From Alphaproteobacteria bacterium (GTDB lineage: Bacteria; Pseudomonadota; Alphaproteobacteria; GCA-2731375), in contig JAJFGG010000152.1 of the NCBI GenBank assembly GCA_021776235.1, positions 87,284 to 151,283 on the forward strand: a stretch of DNA of 64,000 nucleotides, in the 5' to 3' direction. The notes beneath the pieces were generated by a model that ran no database searches, was not told where the DNA came from, and worked only from the letters and a program-made list of their open reading frames with translations. The position numbers and the translations under genes were made by a program. This document shows positions 5,734-52,437 of this stretch, one piece after another. The number at the start of each line of letters is the position of its first letter. Position 1 is the first letter of the stretch.

Positions 5734-5798
5734 GGCGAGGCTCCTCCGTACAATATAAATCAAGTGTAGAAGGGCCGCCGGTCGGGGACAAGCGCGGC

Positions 5799-6061
5799 TA
5801 GACCACGTTCACGGAACATAGACCCGTTTGACCGCACTTCCCAGCTTCGTGGCTAGGCGAAGGTTGCCGCGCGTAGTGGGACTACGGGCAAAACCTTCAA
5901 CGACGCCACGGCGCTGGGAAGCGCGGCCCTCGGTAGCGCGTGGAGGCCCTTCGGATGCGTTGTTTTGCTTGCCCGTAGTCCCACTACGCGCTGCGCAAAA
6001 CGCCTACCCGAATGACCTCCACACGCCATCAAACGGATCTATGTTCCGTGAACGTGGTCTA
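5799..6061. repeat. 263-bp palindromic element, copy 1 (33-bp terminal inverted repeats, two hairpin domains)
   Basis: The ends 5799-5831 and 6029-6061 are inverted repeats with 32 of 33 matches. Inside are two long hairpins. Domain A (5837-5921) nests CTTCCCAGC/GCTGGGAAG, CGTGGC/GCCACG, GAAGGTT/AACCTTC and apical CGTAGT-GGG-ACTACG. Domain B (about 5939-6025) nests GTGGAGG/CCTCCAC, TTCGG/CCGAA, TTTTGC/GCAAAA and apical CGTAGT-CCC-ACTACG. The 22-base apical segments (5869-5890 and 5970-5991) are inverted copies of each other. The right end contains the TAG stop of the patatin-like gene, so the element supplies or coincides with that stop. No transposase or convincing ORF lies inside. A diverged homologue is at 52176-52437. 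Confidence 0.85.
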
Positions 6062-8407
6062 AAGGGCGGCGATCTCGCGGCGCAGATCGGCCAGCAAATC
6101 GGCACTTTTGCCCAGGTGCAGCGCCTCTGAATCCAGGATTGCGGTGAAGGCCCGCTTTTTCATGGCGACCACATCAATGCCGCCCGCCGCGTCCTCCAAC
6201 TCGGCGCAGTTTATGACGATGTCAATCAACCGCTCGGCGCCGTGCAGGCGGCCCCACAAATAGTCGTTCTCGCGATGGCGGCGGCTGAAAAAGGCGGCGA
6301 AATGTCCCAGGCCCACGCCCTTCAGAATTGCCTCGGCACCGCCCCGGTTCAGGCTGTTGGCATCATCAGGCGAGATCCGGTCAACGCGGATTTCATCAAA
6401 TTCCCCGATGTCGCGCCACGACGTAACCGTGAAGGCCAAGACATCCCAGAAGGCAAACCCGATGAAGCTGTTCAACAGGACCTGGCCGGCCTCGGCGGGC
6501 AAATCCGTATTGGTCGCTTGATCAAGCATCTGGTCGACGCGCCGGCTCAGCCCGCTCAAGGCAAAATCGTCAGCCACCAGGCCGATCAGGGCGCCGATGT
6601 TATGGTCCCGGCCGGATTCAATAGCGGCGGCCATGTCCCGGCAACGGCGGCTAAGCACCGACGCGTCCTGGCAGCGGCGCAGGTCTTCCAACAGATCATA
6701 GATCCGCCCTTTCGTCCGGTCCAGGGCGGCCGCGGTTTCAGAGGCTCGAAAGGTGCCATACATTTCATTCAGGCCGCGCACCACGAAGCGCAACCGGCGG
6801 GCCCGGTAATCAGCGTCCAGGCCGCGTAGAAAGGCCGCCTGTGCCGCGTCTTCGCCGCCGCCATACCGGGGATAGACCCCGGCATCGCCGGCCCAGGTCC
6901 GCAGGCGTTCGGCCCAGCGGTCAATTGCGGCCCGGTCCGCCCGGTGCCCGATGGACCGGGCCAGAATGGTCGCCAATTGCTCGATCACGGCTTCGATCCG
7001 CAGGCGCAGATAGCCGTCGTAGGCATAACCGGATCTGGCCGCCGCCAGGCGGCCGGCCGTGGCCCGCCATTCGGTAATGCGCTCCGTCCGGAACGGCGAT
7101 GTGCTGGTGTCTCCCATGACCTCGGCCACCATTTCGTCAATCCGCGGCATGGCGCTATCCAGCACGGTTTTGAGGCGGTCGACCCGTACGTTGAAACCAT
7201 GTATCCAATCCAGCTCGTCGCGGATCGGTTCATTTCTAGGAATGTCCGACAGGGCGCCTTTCAGGGTTCGCAGCATGCTGGGTGCCCGGCGCGGGCTGCC
7301 GCCGGCGTTGTTGCCGGCCTGTTCGGGAGCGGGATCAATATAGACCAGGCGGCGGTCAACCTGACGATAGGCCGGGCGCTGCTTGATGGCGTCGATGGCC
7401 TGGGCAAAGGGCTTATTGTTCAGCACGCTGCCGTCGATAAAGGCGGCGTCTTCCGGGTTCTGCCCGGCGACATCATAGGCGGTAAAATTGTCCGCAAGGA
7501 ATTGCCTCCGTCTATCCCAGCGTGCCTTGCGCCGCTCCACCAGACGGTCAATTTCGGCAATACGGGCCGGGGGAAACGCGCCGGGAAAGGACGAGGTCGC
7601 TCGTGCGGCGAAAACCAGAGCCGGCAAATCCGGCGCATCGAAATCGGTGCTCATATTTCCGGCGGAGACATAGCGGTGGCGGAAATGCAGACTATGGCGA
7701 TGCTCGCGCTCGGTGACCATATTTGGGTCATGCAGGGGGATGGGCTGGCTGTAGCCGAAAAAGTCCGTCAGGGTGATATACAGGTCCAGCCATTGGCCGG
7801 TGGGCGTCAACGAGGTGCGCGGGCCTTTGCCGTAGCCCATGGCGGCCATGCCGTCATACAGCGTATCGCACAGGGCCGGGCCGCCGAAAGGCGGGCGAAA
7901 CCAGCGCGAACGGATGAATAAGGACAGCTTATCCCGCATTTCCTGATCCGGGGTCAGACGCGCCATCCTGCGCCGGGTCAGGCCCCAGCGCAGCACTGGG
8001 CGCAAAATCCATTTGCTCCACATGGAGGCCCGGCGGTCCGGGGCCAGCAATTCGGAGACATCCGCCTTGTTCAGCCACATGTCGCGCAATGGATCAAAGG
8101 CCAGGTCCAGGGCCAGGGCCCGGGCCAGCAGAATGCCGTTGATGCCGCCCGCGGAAGCGCCGGCGATGACATCCACCACCACATGCAAATTCAGATGCCG
8201 GCCGATGTCATGCAACAGATCCAGATAGACAGCTTCCGTATCCGTGAAATCGCTGTTGGCGGCCCGGCCGCCCGCTTCGGCGCCGGCCTGATGATCAACC
8301 GAGGCCCGGGTCAGTTTCAGAATTTCCTTGCTGACTCCGTGCATGTAGACGGCCAGCGAAACACCGCCATAACAGACCAGTGCCAGGCGCAATTCCTTTT
8401 CCCGCAT
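6059..8407 (-). CDS. Patatin-like phospholipase (patatin-related protein with DUF3376-type C-terminus)
   Basis: A 782-residue protein. The N-terminal half is a patatin domain: LALVCYGGVSLAVYMHG (8-24) provides the glycine-rich oxyanion loop, GASAGG (83-88) carries the nucleophile S85, and IDGSVLNNKPF carries the catalytic D325. The long C-terminal region, rich in Arg/Ala helices, fits the TIGR03607/DUF3376 patatin-related family. The expected activity is lipid acyl hydrolysis; no signal peptide is seen. It begins 21 bases after the carboxyltransferase gene on the same strand, so the two form an operon. Its TAG stop is the last three bases of the palindromic element at 5799-6061, so the extreme C-terminus may have been altered by insertion. 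Confidence 0.88.
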   Translation of the reverse strand: MREKELRLALVCYGGVSLAVYMHGVSKEILKLTRASVDHQAGAEAGGRAANSDFTDTEAVYLDLLHDIGRHLNLHVVVDVIAGASAGGINGILLARALALDLAFDPLRDMWLNKADVSELLAPDRRASMWSKWILRPVLRWGLTRRRMARLTPDQEMRDKLSLFIRSRWFRPPFGGPALCDTLYDGMAAMGYGKGPRTSLTPTGQWLDLYITLTDFFGYSQPIPLHDPNMVTEREHRHSLHFRHRYVSAGNMSTDFDAPDLPALVFAARATSSFPGAFPPARIAEIDRLVERRKARWDRRRQFLADNFTAYDVAGQNPEDAAFIDGSVLNNKPFAQAIDAIKQRPAYRQVDRRLVYIDPAPEQAGNNAGGSPRRAPSMLRTLKGALSDIPRNEPIRDELDWIHGFNVRVDRLKTVLDSAMPRIDEMVAEVMGDTSTSPFRTERITEWRATAGRLAAARSGYAYDGYLRLRIEAVIEQLATILARSIGHRADRAAIDRWAERLRTWAGDAGVYPRYGGGEDAAQAAFLRGLDADYRARRLRFVVRGLNEMYGTFRASETAAALDRTKGRIYDLLEDLRRCQDASVLSRRCRDMAAAIESGRDHNIGALIGLVADDFALSGLSRRVDQMLDQATNTDLPAEAGQVLLNSFIGFAFWDVLAFTVTSWRDIGEFDEIRVDRISPDDANSLNRGGAEAILKGVGLGHFAAFFSRRHRENDYLWGRLHGAERLIDIVINCAELEDAAGGIDVVAMKKRAFTAILDSEALHLGKSADLLADLRREIAAL

Positions 8408-32619: not shown

Positions 32620-32695
32620 GACCCCGTAGTCTAAAGGTTAGGATGCCGGCCTTTCAAGCCGGAGATGCTCGGTTCAAGTCCGGCCGGGGTCGCCA
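32620..32695 (+). tRNA. tRNA-Glu (anticodon TTC)
   Basis: This 76-base cloverleaf includes an encoded CCA. The acceptor is GACCCCG (32620-32626) pairing with CGGGGTC. The anticodon stem CCGGC/GCCGG encloses the loop CTTTCAA with anticodon TTC at 32653-32655. The T-arm carries TTCAAGT. The T-stem (CTCGG with CCGGC) has one C-C mismatch at its outer pair. The 3' end (32678-32695) recurs in near-identical form at 35115-35132, consistent with use as an integration site. Confidence 0.93.
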
Positions 32696-51073: not shown

Positions 51074-52174
51074 CTAGAATCCCGCCTCGGGATCCTGCAG
51101 ATAGGCTTCCTCCGCCGCGCTGTTGACCCTGCCCAGGGCTGCGTTGCGGTGGGGGAAGCGACCAAAGTCGATGATGAGTTGGCGGTGCTTTGTCATGGAC
51201 TCGTATGACTTGTCACCGCCCTCGCTGCCCCGATAGGCGGCGAAAAGTTCCATGCCCCGGTTCTGGTCGGCCAAATCCTCGCTGTGCTGAAACGGCATCA
51301 CCAGGAACTTTCCGGGAATGCTTTCCAGGTTCTGGTGCCAGCCCGCGGCGACGGCTTGTTTAACGATGGCCAGGATTTTGCCGTCCGTGGCGAAGGCCTG
51401 GGCGGTGCCGCGAAAAATGTTGCGCGGAAACTGATCCAGCAGGATACAGAGCGCCAGGATCCCGTCCAGGCCGTGGCGCCAATGGTCAAGTTCGCCCGCG
51501 GCCGCCGCCGCGACCGTCTCGGAAAATTGGCTGCGGATCTGGTCGTCGAACTTCGAGGTTTCTTCTTTCTGGCGGGCGAACCAGATATCCCGCGCCTGGC
51601 CCCGTTCGGGCGAACCAGGCGGGGCAAACCAAAAATCCAATATCTCGCGGCGGGATTTTACGCCTTTTTCGCGCAGTTCGCATTCCCGGCGGTAGCCTTC
51701 GATCCGTTCCCGCCATTCGTCCGGAAAAGGCTGCGACTTGATTGCGGGGGTATGGACGTCTTTGACTAGCGCGGCGGTGAATGAGGCAGTGCAGACCAAG
51801 GGTCCGCCGACCTTGACCATTTCGAAACGGTGGGTGATGGACGAGCGTCCCAGGCGTTCCACGAAGACGGCCGTGTCGAAACGATCGCCCACTATTAGTG
51901 GCGCATGGAAGTCGAAGTGCAGCGAGACCGCCGGGTTGCCCATGTTGTTCCGCTTCAATTGATAGAAGTTCAGGCCCAGCACCGCCTCGTACCAGACTTC
52001 CAGAGTGTCAATTGCGAAGGGTATAAAGCTGCCTGTATAGGCGATTTCGGCCGTGTCGCTGTCGCCCCAGTTGACCCGGCGGCGAAGGACGAAAGGGATG
52101 TCGGATTGCGGCCGCTGGCCGCCGAAATCCGAGGTCGGAATAGGGTCCTGGTTTTCATCGTTCATGGCGGCCAC
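51074..52174 (-). CDS. Fusion of a hot-dog acyl-CoA thioesterase and a DUF924 protein
   Basis: A 366-residue two-domain protein. Residues about 25-165 form a 4HBT-type hot-dog thioesterase; VNWGDSDTAEIAYTGSFIPF places an aspartate (D40) at the position of Asp17 of Pseudomonas 4-hydroxybenzoyl-CoA thioesterase. Residues about 178-366 are a DUF924 domain (ILDFWFAPPGSPERGQARDIWF, LCILLDQFPRNIFRGTAQAF, FLVMPFQHSEDLADQNRGME). These families are normally separate genes. The frame is continuous across the joint. The start is next to the palindromic element at 52176; ATGs at 52174 and 52165 are both possible. Confidence 0.87.
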   Translation of the reverse strand: MAAMNDENQDPIPTSDFGGQRPQSDIPFVLRRRVNWGDSDTAEIAYTGSFIPFAIDTLEVWYEAVLGLNFYQLKRNNMGNPAVSLHFDFHAPLIVGDRFDTAVFVERLGRSSITHRFEMVKVGGPLVCTASFTAALVKDVHTPAIKSQPFPDEWRERIEGYRRECELREKGVKSRREILDFWFAPPGSPERGQARDIWFARQKEETSKFDDQIRSQFSETVAAAAAGELDHWRHGLDGILALCILLDQFPRNIFRGTAQAFATDGKILAIVKQAVAAGWHQNLESIPGKFLVMPFQHSEDLADQNRGMELFAAYRGSEGGDKSYESMTKHRQLIIDFGRFPHRNAALGRVNSAAEEAYLQDPEAGF

Positions 52175-52175
52175 T

Positions 52176-52437
52176 ATACCAATGATCCTTGATACTGACC
52201 TGTTTCACCGAGATGATTCTTATCGCCAGGTAGGAGCGCGCCGCGCCGTAGTGTCGCTCACTTCAAGCGGGGCGCGACGCCGCTGGCGATAAGAAGCATC
52301 CGGCCGAAGGTGGGCCTGGCCGGCCCTCGGGCGTTGTTGCGGCGCTTGCCCGATGCACCGCATCGCGCGGCGCGCCGCGCCTAGCCCGCGAACCGGCCAA
52401 GCCCATGAAACAGGTCAGTATCAAGGACCATTGGTAT
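52176..52437. repeat. 262-bp palindromic element, copy 2 (32-bp terminal inverted repeats, two hairpin domains)
   Basis: The ends 52176-52207 and 52406-52437 are inverted repeats with 31 of 32 matches. Domain A uses an 18-bp stem with one mismatch (52212-52229 / 52283-52300). Domain B uses a 13-bp stem with one mismatch (52311-52323 / 52393-52405) and an apical CGATGC-ACC-GCATCG hairpin (52351-52365). It is homologous to the 5799-6061 element: both share GACCyGTTTsACCG at the inner left end, GCCGCGC(C)GTAGTG about 65 bases in, and GCGTTGTT followed by GCTTGCCCG about 155 bases in. It begins one base before the start of the thioesterase-DUF924 gene. Confidence 0.85.

Follow-up and report, generated by a model that had tools for sequence, protein, structure and literature searches.

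Two complete copies of a short element with inverted ends lie in the window, which is the whole stretch of 64,000 nucleotides analysed here. Copy 1 (5799..6061, read from TA to TA) is situated between an enoyl-CoA hydratase-like ORF (start at 5763, minus strand) and the 3' end of a patatin-like ORF (6059-8407, minus strand), and is assigned to the subfamily F1 by its ends, fold, copies, and arm matches, together with the flanks of congeners, which align without the element. Its left terminal inverted repeat (5799..5831, plus strand, 33 nt), which forms the outer stem, is 97% complementary to the right repeat (6029..6061, minus strand, 33 nt), which includes the terminal TA, and the TA at 5799-5800 is presumed to be one copy of the duplicated target. 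The interior contains a first hairpin, arm A (5831..5927, plus strand, 97 nt, 90.6 bits with an arm covariance model), in which an internal loop carries the conserved motif AGGCG on its 5' side (5855..5859, plus strand) and a conserved AACG on its 3' side (5899-5902), followed by an inter-arm junction (5928..5932, as delimited by the covariance-model matches) and by arm B (5933..6029, minus strand, 88.9 bits), the inverted homologue of arm A. The right end of copy 1 contributes the stop codon TAG (window 6059-6061) with which the patatin-like ORF on the minus strand terminates, and stop codons are often contained in the preferred YTAR target.

Copy 2 (52176..52437) is a complete element of the subfamily F2, with TACC ends, recognised by its ends, fold, copies, and arm matches, and lies between a DUF924/thioesterase-like ORF (start at 52174, minus strand) and an MFS transporter ORF (plus strand). 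Its terminal inverted repeats (52176..52207, plus strand, and 52406..52437, minus strand) have 32 nt and are 97% complementary, and enclose a first arm (52208..52304, plus strand, 74.3 bits) and a second arm (52310..52406, minus strand, 88.3 bits). The lengths of 263 and 262 bp, the ends of 33 and 32 nt, and the internal hairpins described in the first-pass annotation were all recovered. Each copy folds in silico as an outer stem with two hairpin arms, at a predicted -159.9 kcal/mol for copy 1 (z = -12.93) and -174.4 kcal/mol for copy 2 (z = -12.86), with none of 200 dinucleotide shuffles being as stable in either case. The single-arm covariance model, trained on 65 arms that included the two of copy 2 and the two of a copy-1 relative at 97%, finds two inverted arms in both copies, at 74-91 bits. 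The proposed homology of the two copies is borne out by this shared pair of inverted arms; one additional weak match (15.5 bits) falls on the opposite strand of one of the copy-2 arms. The element is short, has inverted ends and no transposase gene, and the earlier view that it holds no convincing ORF is upheld.

The genome that contains the window, a 6.36-Mb draft in 174 contigs, has 10 full-length copies of copy 1 at 94-100% identity, itself counted, and four of copy 2 at 90-100%, again counting itself, plus one at 84%. Because multiple near-identical full-length copies are present in the same genome, copies 1 and 2 are not chance GC-rich matches, and the two adverse outcomes foreseen in the first-pass annotation, a lack of further copies and chance similarity, are both contradicted. 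At least six end types share a core and differ in their ends, which read TA-GACCACGTTYACAGAAC in F1 (the type of copy 1), TACCAATGRTCC in F2 (the type of copy 2), TA-GAGCAYTTCCGGGC in F3, TA-GTGGTCTGCATCACC in F4, TA-GAGCAWGTCGCGG in F5, and TA-GTGTCCTGGGTCAG in F6. At three mismatches or fewer, the F1 end pattern has 53 matches in this genome (reversed control, 0), and the F2 pattern has 38 (reversed control, 1).

Deletion derivatives are also found in this genome. One-armed forms of 172-184 bp retain both ends (L014, C17:46387-46570; L015, C65:10614-10797; and L059, C106 near 48385), and tiny F1 derivatives of approximately 45-82 bp are dispersed over several contigs (L181, C122:7813; L182, C131:19786; L186, C145:24534; L187, C140:51922; L183, C57:17541-17622; L184, C105:551-632; and L188, C4 near 12378). 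A nearly identical 47-bp F1 form, with a right end reduced to some 9 bp (CGTGGTCTA), occurs at four sites. The draft contigs C43, C87, C11, C96, C164, C16, and C172 end within copies of the element.

The architecture of the family was examined in 115 exact-pattern hits among the matches listed, of which 114 come from named genome contigs and one from a viral contig. Terminal repeats with a score of at least 14 are present in 88 of these hits, while the other 27 (score below 14, many of them at contig ends) were dropped. The predicted folds of the 88 hits and of 25 elements from the own genome have exactly two branches of more than 40 nt in 98 of 113 cases, with a typical outer stem of 31-35 nt, arms of approximately 96 nt, and a junction of 6-7 nt, which gives the three-armed Y after which we call it the Y element. 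The two arms are inverted homologues of each other, and their internal loop contains bases that hardly vary, AG on the 5' side and ACG on the 3' side. A longer form of 301-308 bp has approximately 40 nt of extra hairpin sequence between the arms (L060, L081, L091, L094, L096, L128, L145, L168, L169, L240, and L251). In Nitratireductor sp. XY-223, six elements read have cores that are 84-90% identical, whereas their end repeats are only 42-75% identical in 13 of the 15 pairs and identical in the other two; the ends therefore change faster than the core.

Matches to the arm extend well beyond the genome of origin. At E ≤0.01, the arm model R1 finds at least 142 matches in the own genome, at least 49 in Thalassospira mesophila, 44 or more in Rhizobiales bacterium IMCC20636, and at least 28 each in Inquilinus limosus and Nitratireductor sp. 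XY-223. In an even sample of the phylum, arm matches at E ≤1e-5 were recovered from 35 of 299 genomes, nine of the same class (the own genome counted) and 26 of other classes. Terminal repeats surround the arms in 18 of the 20 loci read, including 14 of 16 outside the class, and a mini-hairpin is frequent at their junction, as in CCCGAAGGG. Elements with this Y are thus known from alpha-, beta-, and gammaproteobacteria. Two R1 arms each were found in Burkholderia cenocepacia, Agrobacterium sp. MA01, and Thalassospira marina; Pseudoalteromonas sp. CuT4-3 has a full-length BLAST match at 68.7% and one arm by R1, and Vibrio sp. THAF190c has a full-length BLAST match at 66.4%, with inverted ends, in which R1 finds no arm. 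The plasmid and phage collections gave no record for copy 1, an Inquilinus element, or L325, one record each for an F3 element and L340, and two each for a 302-bp element and L326, while L337 has nine plasmid records and no phage record.

Evidence of mobility is provided by both empty sites and target duplications. In ten congeners (G005-G014), the sequences on either side of copy 1 can both be aligned, and in every one of them they are only 4-96 bp apart, so no full-length element is present there. The occupied site reads GGC-TA..TA-AAGGG, and the two sites with the shortest gaps are those of G014 (5 bp, GGC-TTATAGGG) and G010 (4 bp, GGC-CTATAGCG). F1 copies, some of them partial, are found at other loci in G006, G008, G013, and G014. 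Flanks could be read for 152 elements of the non-TACC types, of which 105 carry a TA at each end, with CTAG or TTAG at 190 of these 210 ends, and a TA at each end was not found in the remaining 47; most element ends thus sit in YTAG targets with a duplicated TA. IS630 elements duplicate a TA target, with a preference for CTAG. In the TACC-type elements, an exact 3-bp duplication is present in six of 17 and TNA at both ends in nine, with the exact duplication being absent from the other 11, including copy 2, which is flanked by CTA and TCA and has no clean duplication, while copy 1 has TA at both ends. The search for empty sites and target duplications suggested by the first-pass annotation therefore gave positive results, at the locus of copy 1 for the former, and for most non-TACC elements and a minority of the TACC type for the latter. 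The Y element is probably a MITE, being short and dispersed, with inverted ends and no transposase gene, and having empty sites and target duplications, to which IS630-family elements with related termini add further support.

These IS630-family elements are the candidate movers. In the own draft genome, six IS630 matches are found at five places, and are mostly partial; one of their ends reads TAGTGGTCTGAATCATC inward and is F4-like, and no F1, F2, F3, or F5 end, the four that were searched for, was found at the loci of the six matches. The solitary F1 ends read in this genome adjoin no IS with F1 ends, and belong just to truncated copies and to the derivatives of some 45-82 bp; in the loci read, no autonomous partner with identical full-length ends was found. 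Related termini are found in the congeners. A 1052-bp element in G012, with a DDE_3 domain, has ends that read CTAGAGCATTTCCGA, of which F3 shares TAGAGCATTTCCG (13 bases), and the IS630-family end CTAGTGGTCTGAATCA of G005 resembles F4 (TAGTGGTCTGCATCA). The end of a G011 element (CTAGACCAATTT) has only TAGACCA in common with F1, and outside the F3, F4, and TACC types, the termini shared by IS and Y elements are short.

In G016, a member of the same family as the own genome, an IS with TACC ends has an exact TNA duplication in all six of the copies read (TAA four times, TCA, and TTA; L297, L302, L310, L315, L318, and L321). Its TNA target raised the possibility of IS5/IS1031 ends, an assignment that was dropped, given that the element has DDE_3 and HTH_29/32/33 domains, with NF033545 above the cut-off; the transposase pieces of both G016 and G012 have DDE_3 and HTH domains in a Pfam scan. 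The TACC-ended element is read as IS630-type from these domains, and the G016 genome has 54 IS630 model matches, several per copy. This IS630-family element duplicates 3 bp, unlike the TA typical of IS630. In Inquilinus limosus, IS630 fragments adjoin TAGAGCAYTTTCCGATC, and the Y elements read there have other ends, TARYCCGCA. Thalassospira mesophila, with its many arms, has a single weak IS630 match, and three of the 12 genomes searched for IS630 had no match at the threshold used. As to a transposase with matching ends, suggested in the first-pass annotation, IS630-family elements of the genus and family have termini that resemble those of the Y elements and, for the TACC type, also share the TNA duplication. 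From these ends and duplications, we infer that the Y elements are likely mobilised in trans by transposases of the IS630 type.

The retention of pairing is evident in deep comparisons, for which 65 arms were kept at less than 80% identity from 162 arms of 92-104 nt. Changes on both sides are present in all 34 of the 34 predicted arm pairs, and 90.1% of the cells are paired, in comparison with 59.8% in shuffled alignments and 36-43% when the partners are slid, while 706 cells are doubly changed, against 216 in the shuffles. As this covariation exceeds both the shuffled and the slid controls, the claim that pairing is preserved in spite of sequence divergence holds.

Young copies provide a closer view of how paired changes arise. 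Of the 172 elements that were clustered, 127 fall into 17 clusters with at least three members each. In F1, 28 double Watson-Crick replacements were counted against an expected 0.9 (4.2% divergence among 16 copies of the own genome and its congeners), and in F3, 26 were found against 1.5 (17 copies, 5.0% divergence). Over the 17 clusters, in pooled counts that include ancestry shared between copies (which private changes alone avoid), 525 of the 580 double-changed cells are still Watson-Crick, where 77.8 would be expected under independence and the slid controls give 137-199. One explanation is a template switch during replication, which would copy a mutation from one side of a stem onto the other, so that paired changes would arise by single copying events, rather than as two mutations held by selection, and the arms would likely stay complementary because copying rewrites the stems. 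The correction of quasipalindromes by template switching between inverted repeats is known in E. coli (PMC7202029, in the portion available), and template switching has been proposed for RNA hairpins, in which multibase compensatory changes may come from a single event (PMC8794818, available portion). These accounts concern RNA genes and reporters, whereas the matching signature is found here in a bacterial MITE family.

The distribution and type of the changes bear on whether selection on the fold of the DNA might give the same result. A host factor or the transposase itself might recognise the Y as a cruciform or in single-stranded DNA, and thereby keep the sides of the stems matched, an explanation that we consider unlikely, even though the geometry is constant inside and outside the class (outer stem mostly 31-35 nt, arms of approximately 96 nt) and paired changes could arise as well from strong selection on the DNA where populations are very large. 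Private double changes are clustered in tracts, with 21.9% being adjacent, in comparison with 6.7% under random placement, while the respective values for private single changes are 7.3% and 5.6%. Transversions account for 87 of the 184 private double changes (47%) and 121 of the 329 private single changes, and the calculated share in double changes is approximately 14% for two independent hits at the ts:tv ratio of private single changes, and approximately 37% for one copied hit; the observed 47% exceeds both predictions, and is nearer to that of the copied single hit. Paired changes are also as common in the outer repeat, with 148 of the 293 distinct double replacements located in the outer 30 bp, where it should make no difference to a transposase whether the two ends, as such, match each other.

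Recognition at the level of the DNA has in its favour that the unpaired motif changes less than its surroundings in the arms. Within the clusters, changes affect 3.8% of the motif sites, which were chosen by pattern on the cluster consensus and are thus somewhat biased toward conserved sites, in comparison with 6.0% for arm stem pairs, 9.0% for outer stem pairs, 11.2% for other unpaired arm positions, 12.7% for hairpin loops, and 17.4% for the junction. In the Inquilinus limosus elements L095 and L108, nearly all bases of the internal loop of the second arm now pair, and the motif persists in the first arm of L095. Given that copying tends to erase unpaired bases, the persistence of the motif points to a function, and the conserved unpaired AGGCG/AACG motifs are the exception, in that they look selected. 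They may be bound by some protein, perhaps on single-stranded DNA.

Covariation is the standard proof of functional RNA, and the Y element might accordingly be taken for a structured non-coding RNA gene or 3'-UTR element under selection for its RNA fold, as its very stable predicted folds and strong covariation would suggest. If RNA pairing were selected, an excess of G.T would be expected on the strand concerned. In 49 distant elements, arm A, read on its own sense, has 68 G.T to 21 A.C mismatches, as this reading would predict, whereas arm B on the same strand leans the opposite way (45 G.T, 69 A.C), so that the two arms favour opposite strands; the terminal repeat has 41 and 27, respectively. 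The G.T excess of these deep comparisons is found mainly at stem positions close to the motif, and the apical helix has no G-U among its standard pairs (five pairs, 65 sequences). The young copies have no wobble preference, with 190 G.T, 197 A.C, and 221 other single-sided changes in the 17 clusters, two of which lean in opposite directions (G.T:A.C of 58:35 and 19:39). Copy 2, moreover, lies between divergently oriented ORFs, and the Rfam search identified no family for the elements, returning nothing at gathering score in the window except a tRNA gene elsewhere (32620-32692), and only seven sub-threshold matches in 12 relatives. An RNA identity is thus very improbable. Templated correction is preferred because of the lack of wobble preference, the tracts, the many transversions, and the paired changes that also affect the ends; the pattern of the young copies fits correction templated by inverted repeats better than selection on RNA, while the deep comparisons are mixed. 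The suggestion of the first-pass annotation that the fold is under selection is therefore retained only in part: pairing is kept, selection on an RNA fold is disfavoured by the young copies, and the unpaired motifs alone look selected.

REPINs consist of two inverted homologous hairpins and depend on the RAYT (Y1) family of enzymes, and a REPIN identity for the Y element, also proposed at first alongside that of a MITE, has in its favour the inverted homologous hairpins and four Y1_Tnp matches in the own genome, but is extremely improbable, as the Y1 transposase (PF01797) is unmatched in nine of 18 element-bearing genomes, including that of Thalassospira mesophila (at least 49 arm matches), and the element has terminal repeats, duplications, and TA targets of the kind seen in DDE transposons.

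Taken with the evidence on mobility, templated correction leads to the reading that we consider likely, in which the ~263-bp Y element is a MITE mobilised by IS630-type transposases, with a predicted three-armed Y structure whose arms are probably kept complementary by template switching. A broader account, which is offered tentatively and may well be wrong, is that the two-armed core is an ancient hitch-hiking DNA parasite, which has repeatedly changed its transposon ends and ridden many IS630-type transposases in alpha-, beta-, and gammaproteobacteria. The hairpins that are the signature of this core (the AGGCG/AACG internal loop, a CAAG upper loop, and the junction mini-hairpin) would be recognised by a protein, and replication would re-perfect the stems around the bases protected by selection. 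With a single Y core on many transposon ends in three classes, the purpose of a MITE interior becomes testable. The family is widespread and its covariation is overwhelming, yet in its young copies the lack of wobble preference, the tracts, and the transversions point to templated copying, which makes it a natural test bed for the confusion of covariation with RNA function, and for the measurement of quasipalindrome correction in nature.

This large superfamily of MITEs, which share a conserved Y core, is apparently undescribed: in the literature searched, among the matches listed, no title or opening of an abstract describes such a family. Comparable elements are known, as summarised in the available portion of PMC2229807. 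The RUP of the pneumococcus, linked to IS630-Spn1, is non-autonomous, with TA targets and ends like those of the IS630 family; it measures 107 bp, its paired ends have 9 bp, and that portion reports no functional motif, whereas the Y element has 263 bp, ends of 32-33 bp, and a core of two arms that is conserved in three classes. The Correia/NEMIS element of Neisseria is a MITE with 24-bp inverted ends, a terminal TA, and a stable stem, but is shorter (approximately 107 or 155 bp), and two homologous arms are unmentioned in the same portion (PMC2229807). The alphaproteobacterial CIR, like the Y element, has two hairpin arms and a linker, but is listed there without a terminal inverted repeat and carries GANTC (PMC2229807). 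An identity with CIR was rejected, as the ends of the Y element are terminal repeats that pair, and GANTC is depleted in the 172 elements, with 80 sites found against 165 expected.
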